64,000 nucleotides of DNA from Chryseobacterium phocaeense (GTDB lineage: Bacteria; Bacteroidota; Bacteroidia; Flavobacteriales; Weeksellaceae), in contig NZ_LT827013.1 in NCBI RefSeq assembly GCF_900169075.1, positions 153,319-217,318 on the forward strand, given 5' to 3'. Position numbers and translations under genes: made by a program. Positions 1 to 5,256 of the stretch are shown here, piece after piece. The stretch's first letter is position 1. The number at the start of each line of letters is the position of its first letter. Below the pieces are notes generated by a model. That model saw nothing but the letters and a program-made list of their open reading frames with translations. It did not search any database and was not told the origin of the DNA.

Positions 1-1692
1 CCAGAGTGGTGATCTTCGGGAGTTTCTCGTTCACCTGTTTCATCAGGATATGGGCAAAATCTTTTACCTGGTCAAAATCATATTTCCCACCCATCGGAAT
101 GTAGATGTGGATTCCTGTGCTTCCGGAGGTTTTACAATATCCTTTTATTTTAACTGAATTTAAAACCTCATTCACCTGAAGAGCAGTCTCAATCACATCA
201 TCAAATGTATTTTTTTTCGAAGGGTCCAGGTCCAGTACCAGATAATCGGGATGCTCAAGATCAGGCAGAGAGCTGTTCCATGGGTTCAGATCGATGCAGC
301 CCAAATTATTCAGATAAGCTAAAGTCGCTTTATCATTACAGTAAACATAGTCAATGTACTTATCGTTGGATTCAGAATAAACCTTTGTGGTTTTGATCCA
401 GTCCGGCATATGGTCACCGGCATCTTTCTGGTAAAAACCCTGTTCTTCAATTCCATTGGGAAAACGGTTCAGAGACAGCGGGCGGTTTTTAAGATGGGGT
501 AAAATATAACTGGCAACCGACTGGTAGTATTCTATCACTTCGCCCTTGGTAATTCCATCTTTAGGAAAATAAATTTTATCCTGATTGGTGAGCTTCACCT
601 GATGCTTGTCCAGGGTTACTTCTTTCTCTTTGTCAATGTTTTCTGCTTTTTTTGATGGAGTTTTCGCTTTCATTTTCTTAGATTTTTGGTTAGCAGGACT
701 GATAATGGTAACTTCTTGCGGTTCTTTGTCTTCCCGGATGGCCAAAAAAACAGGATGACGGTAGATGCCGTCTTTTGTGATTTCCGAATATTTAATCTCG
801 CAGACCAGCTCAGGCTTAGTCCAGGTTACCGGCATATTGGTCTTTGGAATGGTTTCAAAAGGGGATGTTTTAATGATCAGTTTTTGAAGTCTTCCGTAAA
901 GCTGTTCTAAAGATTCATTATTAAAGCCTGTTCCGGTATGTCCGCAATAGATCAGCTTTCCATTACTGTATTTCCCAAGAATCAGTGCTCCGAAGCTTTT
1001 CCGGGATCCTCTGGGCTCTGTAAATCCACAGATAACAGCTTCATCCGTATTGGTGAATTTTATTTTCAGCCAGTCTGCCGTTCTATGATTTTCCACATAT
1101 AAACTGTTAGCTTTTTTGGCAATCATTCCTTCCAGCTTCATTTGTTTCATCTGATTAAAGAATTCAATACCTTTTTCAGGAATATGATCACAGTATTTGA
1201 TGATATCCGTTTCCGTTAAAGCTTCCTTTAAAAGTTCTTTACGCTGGAGCAGAGGAAGATCTTCTGTAGAGTGGCCATTCAGCCATAACAGATCAAAAAC
1301 CTGATAGGTTAAAGCCAAATCAGGATTATCCCCAATCTGCTGTAAAAGCTGGAAACTGGGCCTTCCGTGTTCATCGTACGCAACAATTTCTCCGTCGAGG
1401 ATCATGTTATGCTTCTGTTGCTCAAAATCTGCTGTTACCTTTTCAAATTTCGATAAAAATGAAATTCCATTTCGGGAATAAAATAGAGGATGCTTACCGC
1501 TGAGATCCGCAATAGCCCTGTAGCCGTCCCATTTTATTTCAAAAACCCAATCCTCATCATCAAATGCTTTTTCAAAAGATTTGGCCAGCATCGGCCTGAT
1601 AAATGAAGAGAGTTTCTTTTCATTGGTTAAAGAATTGAAGTTCCTGAATCTGCTTTCAGAGGTTATGACTTCTTTTTTGCCTTTATTTTTAG
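1..1692 (-). CDS. ligD: LigD, ATP-dependent ligase plus polymerase part (partial, frameshifted from its N-terminal domain)
   Basis: This is the reading frame for the catalytic body of the NHEJ ligase LigD. It shows the ligase adenylation motif KWDG (lysine codon at 1532-1534), an EGMIAKK motif and a WLKIK motif. A Lys-rich linker follows, then the primase-polymerase domain with the metal-binding DLDP motif (about 222-235) and SGSTGIHIYIP (about 90-123). The frame is open from the stop at 1748-1750 to the window edge, so the C-terminus is missing. It has no good start of its own: the first ATG (about 1590) falls inside the conserved ligase start PMLA. The frame lines up with the upstream 3'-phosphoesterase domain only if one base is added in the A9 run at 1695-1703. 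With that base, roughly 750 residues of a PE-LIG-POL LigD would be visible. It could be a pseudogene, a slippage-expressed gene or a sequence error. Confidence 0.88.
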
Positions 1693-2265
1693 GCTTTTTT
1701 TTTCCTCTAAAAATTTCGTTACCAAAGATTTTGGCGACGTATTTTCTTCAGCGTCATATGGGCTTTCTGCAAAATCGTCTTTATGTTTAATGAGCAGCCA
1801 TGCATTGTCTTCAGTATTTTTCATTTTAACAAGAGCAAATTCTCCTTTGAGCTTTTTACCGTGTAAAATGAATTTTAAAGAACCGGCGTGAAGCTCCTTT
1901 AAAAGCTCTTTTTCGTGGTTCAGTTTCGTTTCCTCTAAAGGCTCATAAGTACCGCTGTCCCAAACTTCCACCTGTCCCGCGCCGTAATTTCCTTCCGGGA
2001 TATTTCCTTCGAAATCTTTATAGTCATACGGGTGGTCTTCCACCATCATGGCAAGACGCTTGTCTTTCGGGTCAAGGGATGGCCCTTTGGGAACCGCCCA
2101 GCTTTTCAGAACACCATCCATTTCCAGCCGGAAATCATAGTGAAGCCGGGATGCTGCATGCCTTTGAATCACGAAGATCAGTTTGTCTTTGCTTTTCTTT
2201 GTTTTACCTTCGGGTTCCGTAGTTTCATTGAACCTGCGTTTTTCGTTATAATCTTTCAGGGCCAT
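1663..2265 (-). CDS. ligD: LigD N-terminal 3'-phosphoesterase domain (200 aa, ends at a frameshift)
   Basis: The product trims 3' ends in bacterial non-homologous end joining. The sequence has the LigD phosphoesterase hallmarks: FVIQRHAASRLHYDFRLEMDG near residues 30-50, then WAVPKGPS, the VEDHPYDYKDFEGNIPEGNYGAG segment and WLLIKHKD near residue 155. In other LigD proteins this domain is fused to the ligase. Here the frame ends at a TAA about 30 nt after a nine-A tract, while the ligase continues in the next frame. The start ATG overlaps the ku stop codon (TAATG), which implies translational coupling. A free-standing phosphoesterase domain is possible, but the Lys-rich tail is simply the linker read out of frame. 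The domain call is secure; whether the 200-aa product is the real end product is open. Confidence 0.85.
   Translation of the reverse strand: MALKDYNEKRRFNETTEPEGKTKKSKDKLIFVIQRHAASRLHYDFRLEMDGVLKSWAVPKGPSLDPKDKRLAMMVEDHPYDYKDFEGNIPEGNYGAGQVEVWDSGTYEPLEETKLNHEKELLKELHAGSLKFILHGKKLKGEFALVKMKNTEDNAWLLIKHKDDFAESPYDAEENTSPKSLVTKFLEEKKSLKIKAKKKS
1695..1703 (-). other. A9 homopolymer at the ligD frameshift
   Basis: Nine consecutive A's on the coding strand sit in the linker between the phosphoesterase and ligase domains of ligD. Ten A's would join both frames without any stop. Runs of this length are known to provoke RNA polymerase slippage, and they are also classic sites of sequencing error and of reversible mutation. 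Confidence 0.8.
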
Positions 2266-3050
2266 TATGATGCAGATTTAGATTTGGAATTTTGTAAACT
2301 GGCTTTTAACTGAGCCATAAGATCAATCACCTTACCTTCTTTTGCAGGTTCGGCTTTTTTAGCTTTAATGCTTTTACCTTTCGCTTTCTGCTTAATGATT
2401 TTCATAAGCGCATCAGAATAGGTGTCTTTATACATTTCCGGGTCAAAATCCTGGGAAAGCTGCTTGATAAGGCTTACCGCCATTTTTACTTCTGCCGGTT
2501 TGGGAGCTTTTTTAGCCGGGATCTTAAGATCTGTATAATCTCTGATCTCCTGATTGAACCGGAGCCTGTTGAGCACCAGAATCTCATCATTATACGGCCT
2601 GATCATCCCAATGGCCTCACTTTCACGAAGGACAAAGGTGCCGATTCCTGCCATCTCGGTTTCCTGCAGAGCTTTCAGCAAAAGCCTGTATGCATTTTCT
2701 CCGTTCTTCTGGGGTTCCAGATAATAGGGATTTTCAAAGTACACGCTGTCTACTTCGGCTTCCTTTACAAACTGGTCTATCGAAAGTATTTTTGTTTTCT
2801 CAGGGCTGGCGGCTTCATAATCCTCTTTATCGAGAACAATGTATTTATCATCCATGAGATACCCTTTCACGATGTTTTCCCATTTCACTTCTTTTCCCGT
2901 ACTTTCGTTTACCCTTTTAAACTTAATATTAGAGAAATCAGATTTATCGAGCATGTCGAGATCCAGTTTTGTGGTTTCTGTGGCGGAGTAGATTTTAACT
3001 GGGATATTGACTAAACCGAATCCAATGGCGCCGTTCCAAATTGCTTTCAT
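2265..3050 (-). CDS. ku: Ku protein for non-homologous end joining
   Basis: Bacterial Ku is a homodimer that threads onto double-strand breaks and recruits LigD. The 261-aa protein opens with the family signature MKAIWNGAIGFGLVNIPVKI, continues with the Ku core (KRVNESTGKEV, then VLDKEDYEAASP), and ends in a Lys-rich tail of the kind that contacts LigD or DNA. The length matches the 250-300 aa usual for the family. It is the first gene of the pair and its stop codon overlaps the ligD start, so the two should be co-translated. The promoter must lie in 3051-3122, but I could not pick a clear -7 element. Ku appears intact although its partner ligD is frameshifted. Confidence 0.96.
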   Translation of the reverse strand: MKAIWNGAIGFGLVNIPVKIYSATETTKLDLDMLDKSDFSNIKFKRVNESTGKEVKWENIVKGYLMDDKYIVLDKEDYEAASPEKTKILSIDQFVKEAEVDSVYFENPYYLEPQKNGENAYRLLLKALQETEMAGIGTFVLRESEAIGMIRPYNDEILVLNRLRFNQEIRDYTDLKIPAKKAPKPAEVKMAVSLIKQLSQDFDPEMYKDTYSDALMKIIKQKAKGKSIKAKKAEPAKEGKVIDLMAQLKASLQNSKSKSAS

Positions 3051-3122: not shown

Positions 3123-3166
3123 TTGTCAAATGGCAATGGGTTTGTTGCCCTGTTTTTCTATCTTTA
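3123..3166 (+). promoter_or_regulatory. Palindromic operator and promoter of the Crp/Fnr regulator gene
   Basis: TTGTCAAATGGCAA (3123-3136) is a near-perfect palindrome with one mismatch between its arms. It is followed after exactly 22 nt by TATCTTTA (3159-3166), a one-mismatch version of the Bacteroidota -7 element TAnnTTTG. The same arrangement stands before purA at 3912-3955. With transcription starting about 12 nt after the start of the -7 element, the operator centre would be near -41, the position used by class II Crp/Fnr activators. This suggests autoregulation. Confidence 0.65.
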
Positions 3167-3194
3167 TGTTTTGTGCTTCGCAGGTAAAAACAAC

Positions 3195-3761
3195 ATGGAA
3201 GAACTTTTAAATTACATACGGAAATTCGGAATACTTAACGCCACGGAAGAACTGCTGATCAAAGATGGACTGCAGGAAATGGGCATTCAGAAAGGTGAGC
3301 ATTTTATAGAAGCGGGAAAGGTGAGCAAAAAGATCGCTTTTGTAAAGGAAGGCGTATTCAGGTCTGTGTACTATAACAAACAGGGTGATGATTTTACCCG
3401 TTATTTTATTTATGAAGGAAGATTCATCGGGGATTTTTACGGTTTTGCAGATCAGGTGCCTGCCCTAGAATCTATTGAAGCCGTTACGGACGGCGTATTG
3501 CTGGCCATTGATGTGGACCACTTTAAAAAACTGGAAAAAGAAATTACCATCTGGCCCGTGCTCTTTGCAAAACTGCATGCCTTTGTAGCGGAAAACAAAC
3601 TTAAAGTGGCGAGTACCATGCTTAATCTTGACGCCAAATCAAGGTATATTCATTTTTTAAATCACTATCCAGGAGTGGCCAACCGTGTTCCACAATCTAT
3701 GCTGGCTTCTTACCTCGGAATTACCCCTTCTTCTTTAAGCAGGATCAGAAGAAATATATAA
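3195..3761 (+). CDS. Crp/Fnr family transcriptional regulator
   Basis: The 188-aa protein has an N-terminal cyclic-nucleotide-binding beta-barrel (about residues 15-125, including FVKEGVFRSVYYN and RYFIYEGRFIGDF). After a dimerisation helix comes a short C-terminal helix-turn-helix (SMLASYLGITPSSLSRIRRN). This is the compact form common in Bacteroidota, where the ligand is usually unknown; no FNR-type Cys cluster is seen. I place the start at the ATG at 3195. A longer in-frame version would begin with TTG inside the operator, upstream of the predicted -7 element, and cannot be translated from this promoter. A matching operator lies before its own gene and before the downstream purA, so self-control and control of purA are the natural inferences. 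Confidence 0.9.
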   Translation: MEELLNYIRKFGILNATEELLIKDGLQEMGIQKGEHFIEAGKVSKKIAFVKEGVFRSVYYNKQGDDFTRYFIYEGRFIGDFYGFADQVPALESIEAVTDGVLLAIDVDHFKKLEKEITIWPVLFAKLHAFVAENKLKVASTMLNLDAKSRYIHFLNHYPGVANRVPQSMLASYLGITPSSLSRIRRNI

Positions 3762-3911
3762 AAAATCAATACAACTGGTTTTATTCACTTTAGAATAATC
3801 AAAACCTCCATTAATTTAACCCGGAAATTAATAAGGGTCTGTCTATTTAAACATAGGCCTTCATTATCATAAATACTTTTTACATTATACATTTTACAAA
3901 AAAATCCCTTT

Positions 3912-3955
3912 TTGTCAAATGACAATGGCTTCGCTTAATCCCTGCCATAGCTTTG
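3912..3955 (+). promoter_or_regulatory. Palindromic operator and promoter of purA
   Basis: TTGTCAAATGACAA (3912-3925) is a perfect 14-bp palindrome. TAGCTTTG, a full match to the -7 consensus TAnnTTTG, begins exactly 22 nt later (3948-3955). The sequence and the spacing repeat the arrangement before the adjacent Crp/Fnr gene. The predicted start is near 3960, which leaves a leader of about 15 nt before the ATG at 3976. Confidence 0.72.
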
Positions 3956-3975: not shown

Positions 3976-5256
3976 ATGAATATGGATATTGTCTTAGGGC
4001 TTCAGTGGGGTGATGAAGGTAAAGGGAAATTTATTGACCTGATCAGTGAAGGTTATGATATTACAGCACGTTTTAACGGGGGAGCAAATGCAGGACACAG
4101 CATAGAACGTGACGGAAAAAGGATTACACTGAAATCGCTTCCTTCAGGAATTTTTATGAAGAATGTTCAGAATGTGATTGGAACCGGAACTGTTTTGGAT
4201 CCTGTAAGTTTCAGAAATGAAATTTTAAATTTACACAGGTTTGACGAAAGCATTGAACCGGAAAAGAATCTTGTAATTTCCAAAAAAGCACATCTTGTCC
4301 TTCCCACACACAGGCTACTGGATGTTTTTATGGAAGAAAATCCGGAGTATACAACGATTGGAACAACGAAAAACGGGATTGCACAGGCATATTCCAATAA
4401 AATTTTAAGACAGAATCTGAGGGTTGGTGATATAGAATCTCGGGATTTTGAAAGCAGAATCCTTCATATTTTGCAAAGAGATTACAGGTTTTTAGCTATT
4501 GGAGACAGAATTCTTCCTTCTCTGGATGAAATTACCCGGGACTTCTTTGAAGCAATAGATTTTATTAAGAAATTCAGGCGTATGGAAACGGAGATATTTT
4601 TAAATAAAGCCATGACTGAAGGTAAGAAGATTCTGGCAGAAGGGTCCCAGGCGGCTATGCTTGACATTGACCACGGAACTTATCCTTACGTAACCTCTTC
4701 CTCTACAACGGCTGCCGGAGCAAGTACGGGGCTGGGAGTTTCTCCTAGAAAAATCGGTGAAATATTCGGGATAGCAAAAGCCTATTTTACAAGGGTAGGA
4801 AATGGCGCGTTCCCAACAGAGCTTTTTGATGAGGTGGGTGAAGAAATCAGAGATAAAGGGAATGAGTTTGGCTCGAACACCGGACGCCCACGAAGAATAG
4901 TCTGGCTGGATCTTCCGGCTTTAAGGTATGCTATTATGATCAACGGAGTTACCCAGATTATTCTGACCAAGGCAGATATTTTAAGTGGAATGGAATCTGT
5001 GGCGGTCTGTACCCATTATGAACTGGAAGACGGAACTGTTGAGACGATTGCAGGAACGCTTCCTGACAACGCCCGTCCTGTCCTTAAAGCTTTAAAAGGC
5101 TGGAGCGGAGACATTGCCGCTGTTAAAGACGTCGCTGGCTTGCCTGAAGAATTAAAAGCTTTTCTTTCTTTTCTTAATACCGAACTGGGTGTTCCGGTTA
5201 CTTATCTTTCAACTGGGCCGGGAAGAGAACAGATTTTAAAGTTAAACAGTAAATAA
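3976..5256 (+). CDS. purA: Adenylosuccinate synthetase, divergent form
   Basis: PurA joins IMP and aspartate with GTP to form adenylosuccinate, the first committed step to AMP. The 426-aa protein keeps the GTP loop QWGDEGKGK with catalytic Asp13, His41 in NAGHSI, the DIDHGTYPYVTSSSTT block, TRVGNGAFPTEL, and NTGRPRR with the TKAD guanine-binding motif. One segment differs from the usual family pattern: where most PurA proteins have GIGP in the IMP loop, this one reads TTKNGIAQAY. From memory of flavobacterial PurA sequences it looks like a second, divergent copy rather than the housekeeping enzyme, but I could not test this. It stands alone, next to a Crp/Fnr regulator with which it shares an operator. 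Asp13 argues against the phage enzyme PurZ. A strong hairpin ends the transcript. Confidence 0.9.
   Translation: MNMDIVLGLQWGDEGKGKFIDLISEGYDITARFNGGANAGHSIERDGKRITLKSLPSGIFMKNVQNVIGTGTVLDPVSFRNEILNLHRFDESIEPEKNLVISKKAHLVLPTHRLLDVFMEENPEYTTIGTTKNGIAQAYSNKILRQNLRVGDIESRDFESRILHILQRDYRFLAIGDRILPSLDEITRDFFEAIDFIKKFRRMETEIFLNKAMTEGKKILAEGSQAAMLDIDHGTYPYVTSSSTTAAGASTGLGVSPRKIGEIFGIAKAYFTRVGNGAFPTELFDEVGEEIRDKGNEFGSNTGRPRRIVWLDLPALRYAIMINGVTQIILTKADILSGMESVAVCTHYELEDGTVETIAGTLPDNARPVLKALKGWSGDIAAVKDVAGLPEELKAFLSFLNTELGVPVTYLSTGPGREQILKLNSK

Follow-up and report, generated by a model that had tools for sequence, protein, structure and literature searches.

A predicted self-regulated cassette pairing a Crp/Fnr-type regulator with an accessory adenylosuccinate synthetase gene in Bacteroidota

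Within the window, the whole stretch of 64,000 nucleotides analysed here, two neighbouring genes are likely to form a self-regulated two-gene cassette, in which a Crp/Fnr-type regulator activates its own gene and purA2 upon a purine signal, PurA2 serving as a back-up enzyme. The operator, its spacing, the strict pairing of the two genes, the paralogy and the purifying selection are supported by computation. From a mechanistic point of view, we infer that a dimer of the 188-aa protein, a dedicated local regulator, would bind TTGYCAAATGRCAA at -41.5 in both promoters, its own and that of purA2, and, once ligand-bound, would recruit RNA polymerase at the TAnnTTT(G/A) -7 element, and thus activate (class II) rather than repress. 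The ligand would be a small molecule and not an iron-sulphur cluster, and its binding probably differs from that of cAMP to CRP. Because the target is a purine enzyme, the simplest reading, drawn from the target alone, is that the signal is a purine-pathway imbalance; the regulator would most likely report an imbalance in purine nucleotides, such as a rise in IMP upon blockage or overloading of housekeeping PurA. In response, a working second adenylosuccinate synthetase, PurA2, would be made and would restore the IMP-to-AMP flux.

Local self-regulated Crp/Fnr proteins are of a known kind. As far as our searches show, the dedicated pairing of a Crp/Fnr regulator with an accessory copy of an essential enzyme is new within the open-access literature searched, where no account was found of the regulator-purA2 pair, of the operator or of the PurA2 paralogue. 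The locus represents a predicted regulon of the Crp/Fnr type in Bacteroidota, for which the operator and its position are exactly defined, and the association of a regulator and a spare purA with one conserved DNA switch points to the dedicated induction of a back-up enzyme.

Operators and predicted promoters at the locus

Both 14-mer palindromes described in a first-pass annotation of this DNA were confirmed in the sequence, at 3123-3136 and 3912-3925, as was the spacing of exactly 22 nt that it gave between each of them and a -7 element, at 3159 and at 3948 (Table 1). The arms of the purA2 operator form a perfect palindrome (TTGTCA/TGACAA), and those of the regulator operator have one mismatch (TGGCAA). 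The label TAnnTTTG, applied there to both -7 elements, suits the purA2 promoter, while the regulator promoter has TAnnTTTA, with a final A that was found in 94% of 51 homologous sites.

Table 1. Features of the regulator-purA2 locus, in window positions
Feature	Position	Strand	Remarks
Regulator operator TTGTCAAATGGCAA	3123..3136	+	Centre predicted at -41.5; homologous site, with at most 2 mismatches, in 51/52 separately promoted regulators
Regulator -7 element TATCTTTA (TAnnTTTA)	3159..3166	+	22 nt past the operator; predicted start at about 3171
188-aa Crp/Fnr-type regulator	3195..3761 (stop included)	+	Pfam PF00027; relative of 3dn7; model matches Crp/Fnr structures
purA2 operator TTGTCAAATGACAA	3912..3925	+	Centre predicted at -41.5; exact in 79/80 named loci (best 80 of 81)
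purA2 -7 element TAGCTTTG	3948..3955	+	22 nt past the operator in 78/80 named loci (best 80 of 81); predicted start at about 3960
PurA2, 426-aa adenylosuccinate synthetase	3976..5256 (stop included)	+	PF00709; NCBIfam NF002223 and TIGR00184

Class II activators act from a site centred at about -41.5. In the available part of a study on Flavobacterium johnsoniae, the -7 element extends from T-12 as far as G-5, transcription starts 4-5 nt downstream of it, and the -33 motif is far weaker than the -7 element (PMC6847099). Because of the 22-nt spacing and of this rule for the start, as given in that part of the study (PMC6847099), both operators have their predicted centre at -41.5, in line with the centre near -41 that the first-pass annotation gave, and on these predicted starts they lie at the class II position.

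At the scale of the 4.86-Mb host genome, TTGTCANNTGRCAA is absent elsewhere, and TTGYCANNTGRCAA occurs at 2 sites, both at the locus (reversed control, 1). A repeat family as the origin of the palindromes was ruled out by this number of genome sites. When up to 2 mismatches were accepted, 9 palindromes were found for 16 expected by chance, a count that adds no support for the sites; since it is uninformative, support for the operator comes from its conservation (79/80 versus 1/8000 shuffles, see below).

On the other side of the regulator, the window holds at 1663-3050 a Ku gene and a gene with a LigD phosphoesterase domain, divergent from the regulator gene. The regulator operator sits in the intergenic region common to the divergent ku and could also affect ku. 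Ku-like neighbours are present in the listed Chryseobacterium loci and not in other genera.

Pairing and operator conservation in relatives

The two genes occur together. A regulator orthologue was found in 26 of 197 family genomes (at least 64% identity, next match below 45%) and PurA2 in exactly the same 26 (at least 51% identity, next match 44%), namely 24 of the 50 genomes of the genus plus 2 from a different one. All 26 regulator-carrying genomes have the operator-spacer-TAnnTTT pattern, in agreement with the proposed co-occurrence of the operator with the regulator orthologue; the pattern 'palindrome, 20-24 nt, TAnnTTT' was also found in 14 of the 171 genomes without the regulator, and its reversed control in 3 of 197 genomes. 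Among 395 genomes sampled across the phylum, 3 gave a match stronger than E 1e-60, all from the same genus, and the pair is thus an accessory trait.

Named loci were then taken from a scan of genome contigs using two peptide patterns, and the best 80 of 81 relatives comprised 51 Chryseobacterium, 23 Sphingobacterium, 3 Myroides, 2 Empedobacter and 1 Chitinophaga. These 80 loci include many close relatives and are non-independent, and gene order and flanks vary between genera; the closest are Chryseobacterium, with a regulator up to 90% identical, and the host itself is thus probably a member of this genus. In all of these best 80 of 81, purA2 adjoins the regulator gene. The operator TTGYCANNTGRCAA precedes purA2 without mismatch in 79 of the 80 and with one mismatch in the other, TAnnTTT lies exactly 22 nt further on in 78, and positions 41-44 read TTTG, each in at least 99% (best 80 of 81 throughout). 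Dinucleotide shuffles of the same 160-nt upstream regions gave 1 match in 8000, which rules out a chance palindrome.

Two gene orders were observed. In Chryseobacterium and Chitinophaga (52 of the best 80 of 81 loci), the regulator gene comes before purA2 and each gene has one operator. Within this set, 51 of the 52 regulators have their own operator (41 exact, 9 with one mismatch and 1 with two), followed at 22 nt by TAnnTTT in 49 of the 51 homologous sites. Conservation of the palindrome upstream of both orthologues, on which the first-pass annotation had made its claim depend beforehand, was thus found (79/80 for purA2 in the best 80 of 81 loci, 51/52 for the regulator). In Sphingobacterium, Myroides and Empedobacter (28 of these best 80 of 81), purA2 comes first, a single operator stands ahead of both genes, and the gap between the two genes is 9-353 nt. 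The regulator gene and purA2 were the sole genes recurring between genera when eight representative neighbourhoods were compared by eye. The exception among the 52 separately promoted regulators is L110; in this Chryseobacterium case (L110 / L030), the regulator operator is one base shorter and the purA2 operator is intact, which constitutes a natural operator variant.

Repression has to be weighed against this geometry. A regulator that covers the promoter and leaves it on ligand binding would fit the palindrome beside the -7 element and the self-regulation equally well, but with the fixed 22-nt spacing (78/80, best 80 of 81, and 49/51) the operator comes to lie at -41.5, ahead of the -7 element, where it overlies the -33 region reported as weak in the available part of the F. 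johnsoniae study (PMC6847099). Repression is therefore considered unlikely, and class II activation is favoured because of the fixed predicted position at -41.5 and the common operator.

When a wider regulon was searched for in 18 genomes, each contained 1-8 exact sites, in the range of the reversed control (0-8), and nothing beyond the cassette therefore stands out. At the 17 listed housekeeping purA places, none of the listed operator sites was present.

The regulator and its reductase-linked relatives

The assignment of the 188-aa protein to the Crp/Fnr type was borne out by its match to the Pfam cNMP_binding domain (PF00027, 36.4 bits versus a cut-off of 27.5), the only Pfam domain matched. 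A single PDB sequence relative was found at E of at most 0.01, 3dn7 from Cytophaga hutchinsonii, annotated as a 'cyclic nucleotide binding regulatory protein' and aligned over residues 4-186. The AlphaFold model is modest (mean pLDDT 70.6), and its Foldseek matches are Crp/Fnr structures. The alignment to 3dn7, together with a conserved SLSRIR helix, suggests a C-terminal helix-turn-helix, a domain for which no Pfam match was obtained. The protein thus resembles CRP, NtcA, CooA, FNR and 3dn7 in its cNMP-binding domain, in its fold and in a palindrome at the predicted class II position, and is set apart within the superfamily by the operator TTGYCAAATGRCAA and by a PurA paralogue as target.

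Differences from the best-known members concern the sensor. In E. coli CRP, the arginine R82 binds the cyclic phosphate; unlike CRP, the regulator and its relatives lack it, as the aligned column has Arg in 0 of 55 regulators, PurA2-linked and reductase-linked together. The cysteines that hold the FNR cluster are missing from the window regulator, which has no cysteine at all, and an FNR-type cluster is thus excluded in it; 25 of the 26 closest orthologues have none either. More broadly, among 30 sampled PurA2-type regulators, cysteines number 0 to 3 each with no conserved cysteine column, while S57, D65, Y73, R76, G79 and D80 are present in 30/30.

More distant relatives of the regulator, at 33-45% identity, were found in other Bacteroidota genomes (loci L041-L044 and L214-L235), 25 of the 26 loci being readable (L229 had no usable match). 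All 25 contain the palindrome family TTRYCANNTGRYAA. It lies at -47 to -49 of the relative's own start in 21 of them, and 575-728 nt after that start, behind the regulator and before the next gene, in 20. The next genes were recognized by eye as short-chain dehydrogenases (SDR) or aldo-keto reductases, with one of each confirmed by Pfam. TAnnTTT was found at 22 nt from 11 of the 21 own-start sites and at 21 nt from 2; behind the regulators it was found at 22 nt for 1 of the 20 sites, so that the class II geometry does not extend to the reductase targets.

PurA2-linked and reductase-linked regulators have in common a recognition helix (SSLSRIR, SSFSRIR or QSLSRIR), the palindrome family, and an operator for the regulator itself and for the neighbouring gene. 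They differ in the targets, in overall sequence and in the sensor halves, those of the reductase type having Cys100 in 24/25 and Cys58 in 19/25, and the reductase-linked proteins are possibly electrophile or redox sensors. From these alignments we infer that one DNA-binding half and one operator family may serve more than one signal. The relatives form a natural experiment, sensor and target varying against a constant operator and DNA-binding helix. They also qualify the 'compact two-gene regulon' proposed in the first-pass annotation: the pairing and the common operator stand, but the operator is not private to the regulon, since the reductase-linked relatives carry the same palindrome family.

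It may be asked whether the palindromes are read by the neighbouring regulator or by another Crp/Fnr protein of the cell. The host genome does contain 22 matches to the regulator, itself included, which would leave room for another reader. However, both genome sites lie at the regulator locus, relatives with the same recognition helix do carry the palindrome, and for nine of the 21 other matches, those examined, the palindrome was missing from the 3.5-kb locus in all nine; these nine proteins are 25-33% identical to the regulator and have a different recognition helix. Reading by another protein thus appears extremely improbable.

PurA2, an accessory adenylosuccinate synthetase

The target was first described as purA, and it is indeed an adenylosuccinate synthetase gene: the 426-aa product matches Pfam Adenylsucc_synt (PF00709) and exceeds the NCBIfam cut-offs of NF002223 (469.2 bits versus 402) and TIGR00184 (427.1 versus 395.55). 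It is, however, an accessory paralogue, named here PurA2, and not the housekeeping purA, since a further full-length PurA gene is present in 17/17 named genomes checked. Housekeeping purA as the target was thus ruled out; the host carries its full-length housekeeping copy at another place in the genome, with 41% identity to PurA2. More generally, housekeeping PurA and PurA2 belong to the same family, are full length and keep the catalytic residues, but they are 40-49% identical in the comparisons made, differ in the loop at 299-302, and PurA2 is the accessory and faster-evolving copy.

Conservation of individual residues was counted in 77 of 81 PurA2 rows, leaving out L114, L140 and L148 (terminal stop letter) and L161 (broken). 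In E. coli numbering, D13, K16, N38, G40, H41, T129, R143, L228, T239, V273, T301, R303, R305, K331 and D333 are unchanged in 77/77 and Q224 in 76/77, positions which we take to be catalytic or substrate-binding residues of the E. coli enzyme. PurZ, of the phage 2-aminoadenine pathway, shares the superfamily with PurA2, but PurA2 is full length, keeps Asp13 in 77/77 and scores 103.8 bits against the NCBIfam PurZ cut-off of 300, so that a PurZ-like function is unsupported.

Purifying selection acts on PurA2, with a median dN/dS of 0.08 in 265 pairs from 48 of the 49 Chryseobacterium loci L082-L130. PurA2 evolves faster than housekeeping PurA: in five genome pairs within the genus, the PurA2 copies are 75-81% identical and the housekeeping copies 97-98%, and in the Empedobacter comparison the values are 52% and 77%.

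The aspartate loop differs between the two copies. The 77 PurA2 carry Ser299 in 76 cases, Asn300 in 76 (with Val in the remaining one) and Lys302 in 24. In the housekeeping PurA of the family, 21 in number, position 299 is Ala, position 302 is Gly, and position 300 is occupied by Thr in 14 and by Ser in 7. This contrast, the retention of the housekeeping copy in all 17 genomes checked, and an accessory, patchy and faster-evolving purA2 are consistent with a sharper form of the main reading, which we regard as rather unlikely and in which PurA2 would be less sensitive to a natural adenylosuccinate synthetase inhibitor and induced when housekeeping PurA is blocked. Such inhibitors exist: in the available part of one study, hadacidin, a natural product of Penicillium frequentans, competes with aspartate and has a Ki of 0.19 uM on the H. 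pylori enzyme, and hydantocidin monophosphate is cited as another inhibitor (PMC6136348). However, the housekeeping PurA of two Myroides also have Ser299 and Val300, so that tolerance cannot be read from the loop by itself, and the loop change was rejected as proof of it. As a separate observation, Lys302 belongs to PurA2 of Sphingobacterium and Chitinophaga (L131-L160; 25 SNTKRPRR and 1 AVTKRPRR), the loop otherwise having Gly, in a count made without the unreadable L083 and L161.

The altered loop, with Lys302 in 24/77, and the faster evolution might also reflect a drift of PurA2 to another reaction, using another amino acid or nucleotide, with a regulator that senses that pathway. Against this, the inspected IMP, GTP and catalytic positions are unchanged save Q224 in 1/77, and PurA2 scores above the cut-offs for adenylosuccinate synthase but below the one for PurZ, which makes such a drift quite improbable. 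A PurA2 insensitive to (p)ppGpp, sustaining AMP synthesis during the stringent response, would be in line with the inhibition of E. coli PurA by ppGpp (reported Ki 50-140 uM), but the available part of the same source reports that no specific binding of ppGpp to PurA was seen with enzyme up to 150 uM (PMC5845004). Moreover, the inspected GTP-site residues are unchanged, and we regard this explanation as very unlikely.

In the phylogenetic tree, a branch with moderate support (87/63) splits 23 PurA2 from 37 housekeeping PurA; the Chitinophaga PurA2 forms a long branch, flagged by the program. Two Empedobacter PurA2 are nested among those of Sphingobacterium, and this placement suggests that PurA2 may have been transferred between lineages. 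The locus poses the question of why these bacteria retain a spare copy of an essential purine enzyme under its own control, one apparently passed between orders. One bolder answer, which we consider doubtful, would be a mobile self-regulated spare-target cassette, in which a sensor of purine blockage switches on an inhibitor-tolerant PurA2, and whose regulator clan would have switched targets between reductase genes and a purine enzyme through changes in the sensor half, the DNA-binding half and operator staying fixed.

In-frame stops were considered for nine loci. In L114, L140 and L148 the stop lies in the last columns and is the natural end, and L020, L039, L145, L200 and L208 have none. 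In Chryseobacterium sp. E1 (L161:6792-8055), purA2 is broken into three aligned pieces and the operators are still there.

A third, short PurA-like protein of 357 aa is encoded on host contig C3 (L003:1369-2442) and falls below every adenylosuccinate synthase cut-off. A fixed link between it and PurA2 was discarded, the association not being tight by bare match counts. Its gene is co-directional with a microbial-type PARG gene (PF10021) and with those of two proteins without a Pfam match.
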